From Paracidovorax citrulli (GTDB lineage Bacteria > Pseudomonadota > Gammaproteobacteria > Burkholderiales > Burkholderiaceae_C), in the NCBI RefSeq assembly GCF_900100305.1, contig NZ_FNEY01000013.1:1-64000 (forward strand): a DNA stretch of 64,000 nucleotides, written 5' to 3'. The translations under genes and the position numbers were made by a program. The notes beneath the pieces are model-generated. The model saw nothing but the letters and a program-made list of their open reading frames with translations. It did not search any database and was not told the origin of the DNA. Shown here piece after piece: positions 29,204 to 51,713 of the stretch (the stretch's first letter is position 1; each line of letters begins with the position of its first letter).

Positions 29204-29788
29204 TCAGTCGTGCTCGAAATGGAACACGGCCGTGCCGGCCATGGCGTTGGGCAGCCAGCGCACTTCCCGCCCCTTCTGCAGGCCGAACGCGTCGAGAACG
29301 CGCAGCCGGTTCTTGTGCGCGAGCACCTCGAAATCCTTGAAGGTGCCGACACGGATGTTGGGCGTGTCGTACCACTGGTAGGGCAGCCGCCGCGTGACGG
29401 GCATGCGCCCGCGCAATACCGACAGCCGGTTGGGCCAGTGCGCGAAGTTCGGGAACGCGACGATGCCCGCCCGCCCCACCCGCGCCGTCTCGCGCAGCAT
29501 CACCTCGGCGTTGCGCAGGTGCTGCAGCGTGTCGATCTGCAGGACCACGTCGAACGAGTTGTCGCCGAACATCGCGAGCCCCTCGTCCAGGTTGAGCTGC
29601 ACCACGTTCACGCCGCGTCGCACGCAGGCCAGCACGTTCGCATCGTCGATCTCGACACCGTAGCCCGTGCAGCCGCGCTCGCGCTGCAGCATGTCGAGCA
29701 GCGCGCCGTCGCCGCAACCCAGATCGAGCACGCGCGCGCCATGGGGCACGAGACGCGCGATCGCGTGCATGGTGGATGGATCGCTCAT
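29204..29788 (-). CDS. metW: Methionine biosynthesis protein MetW
   Basis: A 194-residue SAM-methyltransferase-fold protein with motif [23 protein letters not shown], and the family's [19 protein letters not shown] and [16 protein letters not shown]. MetW is required with MetX for homoserine acylation in many proteobacteria; its exact role is less clear. The ATG overlaps the metX stop by four bases (ATGA), the usual metXW arrangement. Confidence 0.95.
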
Positions 29789-30915
29789 GCGGAGGTCTCC
29801 CTGGCAATGCCGTCGAAGTAGGAACGCATCAGGCCCATGTAGCGCGCATCGTCGAGCAGGAAGGCATCGTGGCCGTGGGGTGCGTCGATCTCGGCGTAGC
29901 TCACGTCGCGCCGGTTCTCCAGCAGGGCCTTGACGATCTCCCGGCTGCGCGCGGGCGAGAAGCGCCAGTCGGTGGTGAAGCTCACCAGCAGGAACTTCGC
30001 CCGGGCGCGGGCGAGCGCCAGAGTGAGGTTGCCGCCGAAGGCGAGCGCCGGATCGAAGTAGTCCAGCGCCCGCGTGATGAGCAGGTAGGTATTGGCATCG
30101 AAGTAATCGCTGAACTTGTCGCCCTGGTAGCGCAAATAGCTCTCGATCTGGAACTCGATGTCCTGCGTGCTGTATCGGGGCGCCAGTCCTTCGCGCAGCT
30201 GCCGGCCGAACTTCTCGTTCATCACGTCGTCCGACAGGTACGTGATGTGGCCGATCATGCGCGCGATGCGCAGCCCCCGCTTCGGGATGGTGCCGTGGCG
30301 GTAGAAGTGCCCGCCGTGGAAGTCCGGGTCGGTGACGATCGCGCGGCGCGCCACCTCGTTGAACGCGATGTTCTCCGCGGTGAGATTGGGCGCGCTCGCC
30401 ACCACCACCGCATGCCGCATGCGCTCGGGGTACTGCAGCGTCCACGACAGCGCCTGCATGCCGCCCAGGCTGCCGCCCAGCACGGCGGCGAGCTGCTGCA
30501 CGCCCAGGCGGTCCAGCAGCCGCGCCTGGGCGTTCACCCAGTCCTCCACCGTCACCACGGGAAAGTCGGCGCCATAGACCTCGCCCGTGTCCGGGTGCGT
30601 GTGCATCGGTCCGGTGGAGCCGAAGCACGAGCCCAGGTTGTTGATGCCGATCACGAAGAAACGGTCGGTGTCCACCGGTTTGCCCGGGCCGATCATGTTG
30701 TCCCACCAGCCCTCGCTGCGGGGCTGCCCCTCGTACACGCCCGCCACGTGGTGCGAGGCGTTCAGGGCATGGCACACCAGCACCGCGTTGGAGCGGTCGG
30801 CGTTCAGGGTGCCGTAGGTTTCGTAGGCCAGCGTGTAGTCGCGGATCGACGCGCCCCCCTGCAGGGGCAGCGGCTCCGCGAAGTGCATGGATTGCGGTGT
30901 GGCGATGAACGACAT
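29785..30915 (-). CDS. metX: Homoserine O-acyltransferase (MetX)
   Basis: A 376-residue alpha/beta-hydrolase that activates homoserine at the start of methionine synthesis. The nucleophile Ser149 lies in [11 protein letters not shown]; other blocks are [31 protein letters not shown] and the C-terminal His of [10 protein letters not shown]. Many proteobacterial MetX paired with MetW use succinyl-CoA, so O-succinyltransferase is likely, though sequence inspection alone cannot settle acyl specificity. The start at 30915 has no Shine-Dalgarno and lies just past an intrinsic terminator controlled by a SAM-II-like element. Confidence 0.93.
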
Positions 30916-30919
30916 GGAT

Positions 30920-30954
30920 GAAAAAACCCGGCATCGCTAAAAACGAGGCCGGGT
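30920..30954 (-). terminator. Intrinsic terminator in metX leader (riboswitch expression platform)
   Basis: On the minus strand ACCCGGC and GCCGGGT form a seven-base-pair stem around a 15-base loop, followed by TTTTTTC and then the metX ATG five bases later. The aptamer's 3' end (AAAGACCCG) can pair with CGGGTTTTT of this terminator, including one G-U pair, giving a mutually exclusive antiterminator. Confidence 0.75.
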
Positions 30955-30974
30955 CGTCGCACTGCACCAACGGT

Positions 30975-31027
30975 CGGGTCTTTAGCTGGATTTATAGAGC
31001 GCCCGCAAGCGGTGGCAAATCGGCGCG
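30975..31027 (-). promoter_or_regulatory. SAM-II-like riboswitch aptamer upstream of metX
   Basis: The minus strand shows in order CGCGCCGATTTG, a CGCTTGC segment, GGGCGC, TATAAAT and AGCTAAAGA. This matches the SAM-II (metA/SAM-alpha) layout: an outer stem (GCGCC/GGCGC), an L1 loop with GATTTG, and a 3' tail AGCTAAA that folds back as a pseudoknot. A -10-like CATAAT about ten bases upstream (31037-31042) would start the transcript at the aptamer's edge. High SAM should favour the terminator at 30920-30954. Confidence 0.8.
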
Positions 31028-31037
31028 TGTCCGGCGA

Positions 31038-31616
31038 TTATGCCAAAGGACCGGGGGCCGGTGCGAACAGCGCGACAAGCCCCAGCACCACGAAGATGAC
31101 GGCCGACACCACGTGCACCGCGCGGATCGGCACGCGCCGGGTGATGCGCTCGCCCAGCCAGACCACCGGCGCGTTGGCGAGCATCATGCCCAGCGTCGTG
31201 CCCGCCACCACCCAGAAATAGGCGCTGTACTGGGCGGCCAGCATGACGGTGGCGACCTGCGTCTTGTCGCCCATCTCGGCGAGGAAGAACGCCACCAGCG
31301 TGGTGCCGAACACGCCGAAGCGCGGAGTGCCGCCCGTCTCGTCGTCGTCCAGCTTGTCGGGAATGAGCATCCACACCGCCATGGCGATGAACGACAGGCC
31401 GAGGATCCAGCGCAGCATCTGCGGCCCGATGACGGTGGTCACCCAGGCGCCCACGGCACCGGCGAGCGCGTGATTGGCGGTGGTGGCCACCAGGATGCCC
31501 AGCACGATGGGCCAGGGCTTGCGGAAGCGGGCCGCCAGGACGAGGGAGAGGAGCTGGGTCTTGTCGCCCATCTCCGCGAGCGCGACGATGGACGTGGATA
31601 CGAGGAAAGCTTCCAT
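31038..31616 (-). CDS. TMEM165/GDT1-family manganese exporter
   Basis: A 192-residue membrane protein of the former UPF0016 family. It has six predicted membrane segments and the duplicated signature ALAEMGDKTQLL (residues 13-24) and FLAEMGDKTQVA, which supply the cation path. Bacterial members export Mn2+ and protect against manganese excess. A yybP-ykoY riboswitch lies directly upstream, which strongly supports the Mn role. Its stop codon lies inside the putative metX promoter. Confidence 0.9.
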   Translation of the reverse strand: MEAFLVSTSIVALAEMGDKTQLLSLVLAARFRKPWPIVLGILVATTANHALAGAVGAWVTTVIGPQMLRWILGLSFIAMAVWMLIPDKLDDDETGGTPRFGVFGTTLVAFFLAEMGDKTQVATVMLAAQYSAYFWVVAGTTLGMMLANAPVVWLGERITRRVPIRAVHVVSAVIFVVLGLVALFAPAPGPLA

Positions 31617-31649
31617 GGGGTGGGGTTATCCGGCCGGATGTGTGGACAG

Positions 31650-31697
31650 CATTGACTGCGCCCCGACTCCGGCCTTGGGATCGGTGCACAGTCAATG
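31650..31697 (-). promoter_or_regulatory. Alternative hairpin, expression platform of Mn riboswitch
   Basis: Arms ATTGACTG (31696-31689, minus) and CAGTCAAT (31658-31651, minus) are perfectly complementary. The first arm contains the 3' strand of the aptamer's basal stem (GACTG). Forming this hairpin would therefore unpair the aptamer, a switch between two states. No T-run follows, so control is likely translational or Rho-dependent. Confidence 0.65.
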
Positions 31698-31811
31698 GTC
31701 TCGCCCAGTCCGGCTGAACCGCGTGCGCCATAGGCCGAGAGGGCCCAAGTTTGTTGACGCATGCCCCCGTGCGCGCATGGCGCCGGGCGGGCTACTCCCC
31801 AGAGACTGCGG
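31688..31811 (-). promoter_or_regulatory. yybP-ykoY manganese riboswitch
   Basis: Minus strand, 5' to 3': CAGTCTCTGGGGAGTAGCC, a variable GC-rich arm, CGTCAACA, a second arm, and GGGCGAGACCATTGACTG. GGGGAGTAG, TCAACA and GCGAGACCA are the conserved landmarks of this class, and CAGTC/GACTG close the basal stem. A TACAAT at about 31815-31820 (minus strand) would serve as -10. Mn2+ binding should raise expression of the exporter downstream. Confidence 0.85.
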
Positions 31812-32036
31812 TGATTGTAGTGCACGCGGCTGTGGCCCCCTCGGGAGCACGGCAGCTCATCCGTAATGGAAAGTTCGGGTAAACACCCATCGCGAACGTT
31901 GCAAGCACGCCAATTTCCCTGCTCCAGGCTGGAACAGTTGGTTGATAATGGTTCGGCTTTTCTGCCTGCAGGAATGCACGTTGCGGTGTTTGGTCGGTTT
32001 CGCGTCTCTGAAATCGTCAGGTTTGCTGATTGCGTC

Positions 32037-50291: not shown

Positions 50292-51713
50292 ATGACCGAG
50301 GAACCCTCCCGCAGCCCCGACTTCGACACCGACGCCGATCCCGGCCAGGGGCTGTGGCAAGCCTGTGTCGAGCAGCTCGCGCAGGACCTGCCCGAACAGC
50401 AGTTCAACACCTGGATCAAGCCGCTCGTCGCCCAGGTCGCTCCCGACTTCTCCAAGGTCACCCTGCTGGTGGCCAACCGCTTCAAGCTCGACTGGATCCG
50501 CGCCCAGTACGCGGGCCGCATCACCGCATTGCTCGAGGGCCTGTACGGCCAGCCGGTCACGCTGGAGTTAGCGCTCGCTCAGCGGGAAAGCGTTACCCGT
50601 ACGGTGGTTCGCCCCGTGGTGCAGCAGCCCGCGGCCCCGGCGGAGACGCCCATCGGCTCCGCCCCGTCGGACGAGCCAGCGGCCGCGCCGTTCCGCTCGC
50701 GCCTCAACCCGGCACTCACCTTCGAGACCCTGGTGGAAGGCACGGCCAACCGCATGGCGCGTTCCGCCGCCATGCACGTCGCGGGCTCGCCGGGGCACCT
50801 GTACAACCCGCTCTTCATCTACGGCGGCGTGGGCCTGGGCAAGACCCACCTGGTGCATGCCGTGGGCAACCGCCTGCTGCAGGACAAGCCCGACGCCAAA
50901 GTTCTCTACATCCATGCCGAGCAGTTCGTCTCGGATGTGGTTAAGGCCTACCAGCGCCGCACCTTCGACGAGTTCAAGGCCCACTACCACTCGCTCGACC
51001 TGCTGCTGATCGACGACGTGCAGTTCTTCGCCAACAAGGACCGCACGCAGGAGGAGTTCTTCAACGCCTTCGAGGCGCTGCTGGCCAAGAAGAGCCACAT
51101 CGTGATGACCTCGGACACCTATCCGAAGGGCCTCGCGAACATCCACGAGCGGCTCGTCTCGCGCTTCGACTCCGGCCTCACCGTCACCATCGAGCCGCCC
51201 GAGCTCGAGATGCGCGTGGCCATCCTGATCAACAAGGCCCGGGCCGAGAGCGCCGAGATGCCCGAGGAAGTCGCCTTCTTCGTCGCCAAGAACGTGCGCT
51301 CCAACGTGCGCGAACTCGAAGGCGCGCTGCGCAAGATCCTGGCCTATTCGCGCTTCAACCAGAAGGAAGTCTCCATCCAGCTCGCCCGCGAGGCGCTGCG
51401 CGACCTGCTGTCCATCCAGAACCGGCAGATCAGCGTGGAGAACATCCAGAAGACCGTCGCCGACTACTACAAGATCAAGGTGGCGGACATGTACAGCAAG
51501 AAGCGCCCCGCCTCCATCGCCCGGCCGCGCCAGATCGCCATGTACCTCGCCAAGGAGCTCACGCAGAAGAGCCTGCCGGAGATCGGCGAGCTGTTCGGGG
51601 GGCGCGACCACACGACGGTGCTGCACGCGGTGCGCAAGATCGCGGGCGAACGCCAGCAACTGACCGAGCTGAACCAGCAGCTGCACGTGCTGGAGCAGAC
51701 GCTCAAGGGCTGA
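50292..51713 (+). CDS. dnaA: Chromosomal replication initiator DnaA
   Basis: A 473-residue AAA+ initiator. Domain I ([23 protein letters not shown], 15-40), a variable linker, the ATPase domain with Walker [17 protein letters not shown] (about 177-192), Walker [14 protein letters not shown] and sensor II, and the DNA-binding domain with [15 protein letters not shown] and [11 protein letters not shown] (about 405-455). It heads dnaA-dnaN-gyrB. Confidence 0.98.

Follow-up and report, generated by a model that had tools for sequence, protein, structure and literature searches.

Upstream of metX in Paracidovorax citrulli lies a leader of about 120 bases that very probably functions as a SAM-II-lineage RNA switch, halting transcription of a methionine gene when S-adenosylmethionine (SAM) is abundant. 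Within the window, the 64,000-nucleotide stretch of DNA analyzed here, it lies on the minus strand (31047-30916), between an upstream open frame and the ATG of metX (30915), and precedes the methionine genes metX-metW. Judged from sequence comparison, our confidence in the SAM-II homology and in control of metX by termination is high, and we consider it likely that the element acts as a transcription-terminating OFF switch for metX-metW. The element is not new in kind; the possible novelty lies in how its antiterminator has been rewired and in how far the branch below the Rfam cut-off extends.

All features of the leader are on the minus strand. It begins with an extended -10-like promoter box, TTTGGCATAAT (31037-31047, with CATAAT at 31042-31037), whose TAA also ends the upstream open frame. 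The aptamer comprises the P1 5' strand GCGCC (31022-31026), GATTTG (31016-31021), which matches the third strand of the SAM-II/SAM-V triplex, the loop CCACCG (31010-31015), the expected place of the 5' side of P2a, CTTGC (31005-31009), the 5' strand of the pseudoknot core P2b, and GGGCGC (30999-31004), the final five bases of which form the P1 3' strand. The exact residue mapping of this core onto the triplex strands of SAM-II and SAM-V is a presumed one. A partly conserved joining segment, TCTATAAATCCA (30987-30998), which includes TATAAAT, leads to GCTAAAGAC (30978-30986), the putative SAM-binding and P2b 3' strand and our proposed antiterminator strand. A linker (30955-30977), whose first CCG is able to extend the antiterminator in the fold of the RNA truncated before the terminator 3' arm, connects the aptamer to an intrinsic terminator hairpin (30926-30954) identified by sequence inspection and a comparative scan. 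Its arms, ACCCGGC (30954-30948) and GCCGGGT (30932-30926), flank CTCGTTTTTAGCGAT, which includes the antiterminator partner GTTTTTAGC (30936-30944). The T-run, read from the sequence, occupies 30921-30926; the terminator as a whole spans ACCCGGC...GCCGGGTTTTTT, and the five bases CATCC separate its end from the ATG. The preliminary description had placed the SAM-II landmarks, in order, after a CATAAT box on this strand and a perfect terminator five bases before the metX ATG, and both were found as described. metX (29785-30915) was assigned by NCBIfam NF047916, 'homoserine O-succinyltransferase MetX' (660.7 bits, cut-off 560), and metW (29204-29788), which overlaps metX by ATGA, by TIGR02081 (236.9 bits, cut-off 189.5). 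The nearest relatives of MetX among named records are from Paracidovorax, with 99% identity to P. oryzae and 98% to P. cattleyae.

The motif pattern, composed after inspecting the window sequence, occurs once in the 64 kb even at three mismatches and in none of 100 shuffles. A simple promoter and terminator scan, with a loop limit of 8 and a required -35 box, detected neither signal. It is the comparison with relatives that settles whether the leader is more than a chance arrangement. The motif was present in 64 of 70 metX upstream regions from the family (30 loci, our own included, and 40 more, with seven places of split or partial metX left out). In 61 of these 64 leaders a -10-like box precedes P1 by 12-20 nt (mean 0.0 at three control offsets), and in 63 a hairpin and T-run follow downstream under a permissive rule applied without a chance control. 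The six family regions lacking the motif were L007, L019, L024, L058, L063, and L066. Ten family members (L011, L013, L015, L018, L021, L025, L033, L045, L068, and L070) carry an extra hairpin-like insert between P1 and GCTAAA. All 17 genomes of the genus, our own included, carry the motif exactly once, with exact matches to GATTTG, TTGC, and GCTAAA, and none carries the reversed pattern. Among 80 named relatives, 73 have the motif; one of the other seven has just 25 bases upstream.

The Rfam model for SAM-II (RF00521, SAM_alpha) aligns end to end with the leader and scores 22.4 bits, under its cut-off of 36. The E-value was 0.0042 for 301 bp against all of Rfam, 0.0165 for our own genome, and 0.9 for the whole window; a search of our own genome at E 0.001 returned no match, the 22.4-bit match emerging at a looser limit. 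Because the E-value varies with the search space and the score lies below the cut-off, the match taken alone is doubtful and sub-threshold. A plus-strand match to cyano_het_sRNA (E 6.5) in the Rfam search was taken as noise.

The converse comparison was more decisive. R1, a covariance model built from 53 family leaders excluding the window and with P1 as its sole structure, scores the window at 68 bits (E 1.4e-17, R1 E-values being rough). It also matches 25 of the 30 RF00521 loci found in other lineages of the phylum, the best at E 2.5e-12 (one locus, same class) and 1.7e-9 (other class) and the weakest at E 0.08, with chance matches in the same search starting at E 0.41. Homology to known SAM-II members holds both ways, from RF00521 to the window and from R1 to the RF00521 loci. 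In the order, 36 of 200 genomes contain a match to RF00521 itself that exceeds the cut-off.

The aligned leaders show which parts of the aptamer are held constant. Alignment A1 (53 rows) was drawn from the 64 family leaders by omitting the window itself and the ten with the extra hairpin, and alignment A2 has 16 rows. The core GATTT, TTGC, and GCTAAA is invariant in both, whose rows were retrieved with patterns or models favouring that core, and is present in the window. In SAM-II and SAM-V, according to Huang and Lilley 2018 (PMC6061858), these three segments make up the triplex and the binding strands. In 16 hand-chosen sequences from several lineages, 98.7% of P1 cells are paired, and two pairs show compensated changes, C-G to U-A and C-G to G-C; within the family P1 is invariant or nearly so. 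P2b retains three possible pairs in 16 of 16 sequences, with letters that are constant throughout.

The outer pseudoknot helix P2a, which belongs to SAM-II as described in alpha-proteobacteria, behaves differently from P1: of the stem and pseudoknot whose conservation the preliminary description had anticipated, the P1 stem is conserved and compensated, but P2a finds no support. In the window P2a has at most two Watson-Crick pairs. Pairing of each leader's own P2a strands was indistinguishable from that of swapped strands in the family (2.50 and 2.49 pairs), the order (2.20 and 2.27), the class (2.46 and 2.41), and the genus (1.71 and 1.62), in a test that is blind to a helix of constant letters. 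The same test on 15 distinct RF00521 loci, used as a positive control, gave 4.0 own against 3.2 swapped pairs (1 of 5000 permutations); of 30 loci, six did not fit the motif expression, and removal of duplicates reduced the remaining 24 to 15. Loops come in seven distinct versions in the genus, yet 15 of its 17 genomes share the tail GACCCG. Two or three P2a pairs, for example UCC with GGA, are still possible in many members of the branch. A shifted or hidden P2a in the window was rejected, as the 8 nt after GCTAAA give at most two pairs, and a downstream pairing of GGUG with the loop CACC was dropped when it was found by eye to be missing in the related leader L002. We consider P2a reduced or lost in this branch, as far as the alignments indicate, and for that reason do not call the window element a standard SAM-II member; as a homolog it should nevertheless function like one.

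In this branch, coupling to the terminator seems to have shifted from P2a to the ligand-binding strand. Between the terminator arms is GUUUUUAGC, a sequence complementary to the aptamer strand GCUAAAGAC; the helix of the two has all nine of its pairs in the window and in each of the 17 genus genomes. In the family we scored 63 leaders, one without a terminator by the rule being left out. The 9-mer pairs fully in 15 of them and at least at eight positions in 23 (0.1% and 1.6% in shuffles), and at seven or fewer positions in the other 40. In some leaders both strands differ at positions 7 to 9, as in GCUAAAACG paired with CGUUUUAGC. With a longer strand, the mean pairing energy over the 63 leaders was -15.7 kcal/mol, compared with -10.8 for dinucleotide shuffles and -13.8 for swapped terminators; 0 of 5000 permutations, which ignore relatedness, were as strong, and 39 of the 63 leaders were matched by at most 5 of 100 shuffles. 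Homology, conservation, alternative pairings, and a comparative signal are all observed in these leaders.

Outside the family the picture varies with lineage. Among the 27 best-scoring loci from other orders of the class, 26 have at least eight of nine pairs (2.6% in shuffles), as do five of 20 loci from the order, where 15 have fewer (0.4% in shuffles; one row, L086, was misparsed). None of the 21 RF00521 loci scored outside the class has at least eight pairs; these remained from 29 loci after removal of six off the motif, one duplicate, and one without a terminator, several are near-identical, and in some (L112, L120, and L121) the hairpin was probably mispicked. In such loci, many of which are near-identical, complementarity to the terminator 5' arm is often found in the P2a strand (GGCCGG is one case), and they seem to share that strand with the terminator instead. 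A second antiterminator helix, between the P2b strand CTTGCG and the terminator loop, was tried and rejected (own and swapped -8.14 and -8.14 in the order, -5.06 and -4.99 in the class); the pairing is strong in some order loci, such as L077 (-21.5) and L083 (-20.1).

Folding of the window RNA agrees with this arrangement. Cut before the terminator 3' arm, the RNA has P1 plus the antiterminator helix as its best fold (-29.5), while at full length the terminator fold is preferred (-41.3 vs -34.7 for the antiterminator). Kinetically controlled OFF switches are usually arranged in this way. We hold the specific antiterminator with fairly high confidence within the genus and with moderate confidence for the branch as a whole.

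The preliminary description had assigned the antiterminator role to a different pairing, in which the aptamer tail AAAGACCCG captures the terminator 3' arm CGGGTTTTT. Nine base pairs are possible in the window; in the genus, where the tail is nearly constant, 15 of 17 genomes (our own included) retain the full length. The best fold containing this pairing reaches -34.3, against -34.7 for the other antiterminator. Over 63 leaders, however, no species-specific signal was seen (mean -8.71 kcal/mol for own and -8.86 for swapped strands, with 3699 of 5000 permutations doing at least as well). Two genus members with altered tails, L091 and L099, keep nine of nine pairs in the GCUAAAGAC helix but only eight and seven in this one. 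Moreover, the 3' arm is made last, and its capture would have to beat the local hairpin. We consider this version unlikely, and the GCTAAAGAC/GTTTTTAGC antiterminator better supported by the compared sequences. The SAM-II assignment and the terminator before metX stand, given the two-way homology, the conservation, and the neighbouring genes, whereas the pairing originally proposed for the switch does not.

In the preferred scheme, transcription would start near the 5' end of P1. At high SAM, the ligand would be held by GATTTG, CTTGC, and GCTAAA in a SAM-II pseudoknot, as homology suggests; with GCTAAAG occupied, the downstream hairpin would form and transcription would end before metX. At low SAM, the free GCUAAAGAC is predicted, as polymerase passes, to pair with GUUUUUAGC between the terminator arms, which would delay the hairpin and allow polymerase to enter metX. 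The ligand, its affinity, the kinetics, and the direction of the switch are inferred.

A leader that descends from SAM-II could also have lost its ligand control: without P2a, SAM binding would be too weak and the leader would act as a constitutive attenuator. That P2a was not found in the genus fits this idea. An unused aptamer, however, would hardly retain an invariant core, and GATTTG, TTGC, and GCTAAA are invariant in A1 and A2 and exact in the 17 genus genomes. In addition, a P2a of 2 bp occurs in a metX SAM-II structure and in SAM-V, according to the accessible part of PMC6061858. Loss of ligand control appears improbable to us. A mainly translational switch, with the hairpin beside the ATG masking ribosome access, would suit a hairpin and T-run that end five bases before the ATG, and in L081 the aptamer tail does continue into a likely ribosome site with ATG, but translation control alone needs no T-run, and by the permissive rule 63 of 64 family leaders and 27 of 27 other-order loci have a hairpin with T-run downstream, which makes this reading very improbable.

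A terminating switch of the SAM-II lineage, the reading we favour, has ample precedent. The preliminary description had considered termination worth attention in a SAM-II element, but it does not set this leader apart, since terminated SAM-II elements have been reported before. SAM-II promoters just before P1 and terminators are described in the available text of Corbino 2005 (PMC1273637), the majority of SAM-II elements are called transcriptional in that of Huang and Lilley 2018 (PMC6061858), and a terminated SAM-II leader RNA from Sinorhizobium appears in that of Scheuer 2022 (PMC9373788); SAM-II elements with terminators were already noted in beta-proteobacteria in 2007. The window element shares with RF00521 the P1 stem, the GATTTG/CTTGC/GCTAAA core, the methionine genes, the promoter before P1, and the downstream terminator. 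It differs in the near-frozen P1 sequence of its branch, in its antiterminator strand, in its score under the Rfam cut-off, and in P2a, which is unsupported in its branch but supported in the RF00521 control loci. The core of SAM-V is nearly identical, and its P2a has about 2 bp, but SAM-V is translational with a masked Shine-Dalgarno (PMC6061858), whereas the window element has a terminator after the aptamer. The Rfam search of 301 bp gave no SAM-V match.

The window element is almost certainly the 'metXZ' RNA element of beta-proteobacteria, as judged from its description in the accessible part of Leyn 2014 (PMC4239095). There the element has six conserved blocks, a pseudoknot, and a terminator, and ours satisfies the description as a conserved metXW/metZ leader with a terminator in beta-proteobacteria. 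The genes (metXW or metZ) and the lineage, with 10 of 11 Comamonadaceae genomes in Table 1, are the same. The antiterminator speculated for metXZ in that part of the report uses regions 3 and 4, unlike ours. In the same part, SAM_alpha is reported solely in Rhizobiales and Rhodobacterales and is unconnected to metXZ. A literature search, mostly at title level, found no paper joining metXZ with SAM-II.

A further Rfam family, RF02424, the Bp2_287 'sRNA' of Burkholderia, corresponds to the same genomic element in relatives on the opposite strand. It matches 28 of 150 genomes of the order, one of them above its cut-off, and was not found in the window's own genome. In 11 of 12 fetched loci (L248-L259) the motif is opposite in strand to the RF02424 match. 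In two of these, L250 and L255, the located motif copy adjoins the match and RF00521 overlaps it on the opposite strand; in the twelfth locus, L257, an opposite-strand RF00521 match overlaps. metZ lies downstream in L248, the sole locus with a match above the cut-off. RF02424 is apparently a SAM-II leader read on the wrong strand. Bp2_287 is listed among expressed Burkholderia sRNAs in the available portion of a review (PMC10987360), and a terminated leader would resemble an expressed sRNA.

The branch seems widespread and mostly missed by the standard model, with a rewired coupling of binding to stopping. In the class sample of 229 genomes, 108 had an R1 match with E no higher than 1e-4, three of them from the same family (our own included) and 105 from other orders. 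Of the 30 best class loci, 27 lie outside the family, with metZ nearby in 22, metK in two, and metF in one; at the remaining two, none of five methionine queries matched nearby. Each of the 27 has a hairpin and T-run downstream by the permissive rule. When 20 of the 27 were searched with Rfam, one reached the SAM_alpha cut-off, and in a laxer search all 20 scored 25.2 to 38.1 bits for SAM_alpha. In the 20 loci from the order, metX, metZ, metK, and metH lie downstream, mostly as judged by eye, with three checked by profile. On balance, we lean towards two SAM-II designs: an alpha type that shares its P2a strand with the terminator, and a beta/gamma type that has lost P2a and uses GCUAAAG as antiterminator. 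The latter would occur in about half of the sampled class genomes, mostly below the Rfam cut-off, and would include metXZ and the wrong-strand Bp2_287.

If this is true, an orphan element, metXZ, would be tied to a solved riboswitch class, and one aptamer coupled to termination in two ways would offer a simple comparison. The scores suggest that the Rfam SAM_alpha cut-off misses many beta- and gamma-proteobacterial members. SAM control of metX, metZ, metK, metF, and metH would be predicted in many lineages, and the short antiterminator helix would be directly testable.

Several loci carry variants or additional elements. At L081, a SAM-II element above the Rfam cut-off has a tail, GAGGTCTGC, that runs into an ATG with a likely ribosome site, and may be a translational form preceding a metX-like frame. 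Tandem SAM-II-like elements about 110-120 bases apart were seen at L157, L158, L250, and L255 and in genomes G597 and G601; at L157 and L158 a terminator follows the first element, the second being closer to the following start codon. SAH riboswitches (RF01057) were found at L153 (69.2 bits) and L079 (61.2 bits), loci that also have metK preceded by SAM-II-like elements.

Elsewhere in the window, the open frame at 31038-31616, to which an NCBIfam search assigned no family, resembles by eye a manganese exporter of the UPF0016/GDT1 type, and is preceded by a yybP-ykoY manganese riboswitch (RF00080) on the minus strand at 31623-31812 (53.2 bits, cut-off 45). A match to RF02674 AsdA, an antisense RNA of dnaA mRNA, lies on the minus strand at 50820-50900, with 49.5 bits, just below the cut-off of 52.
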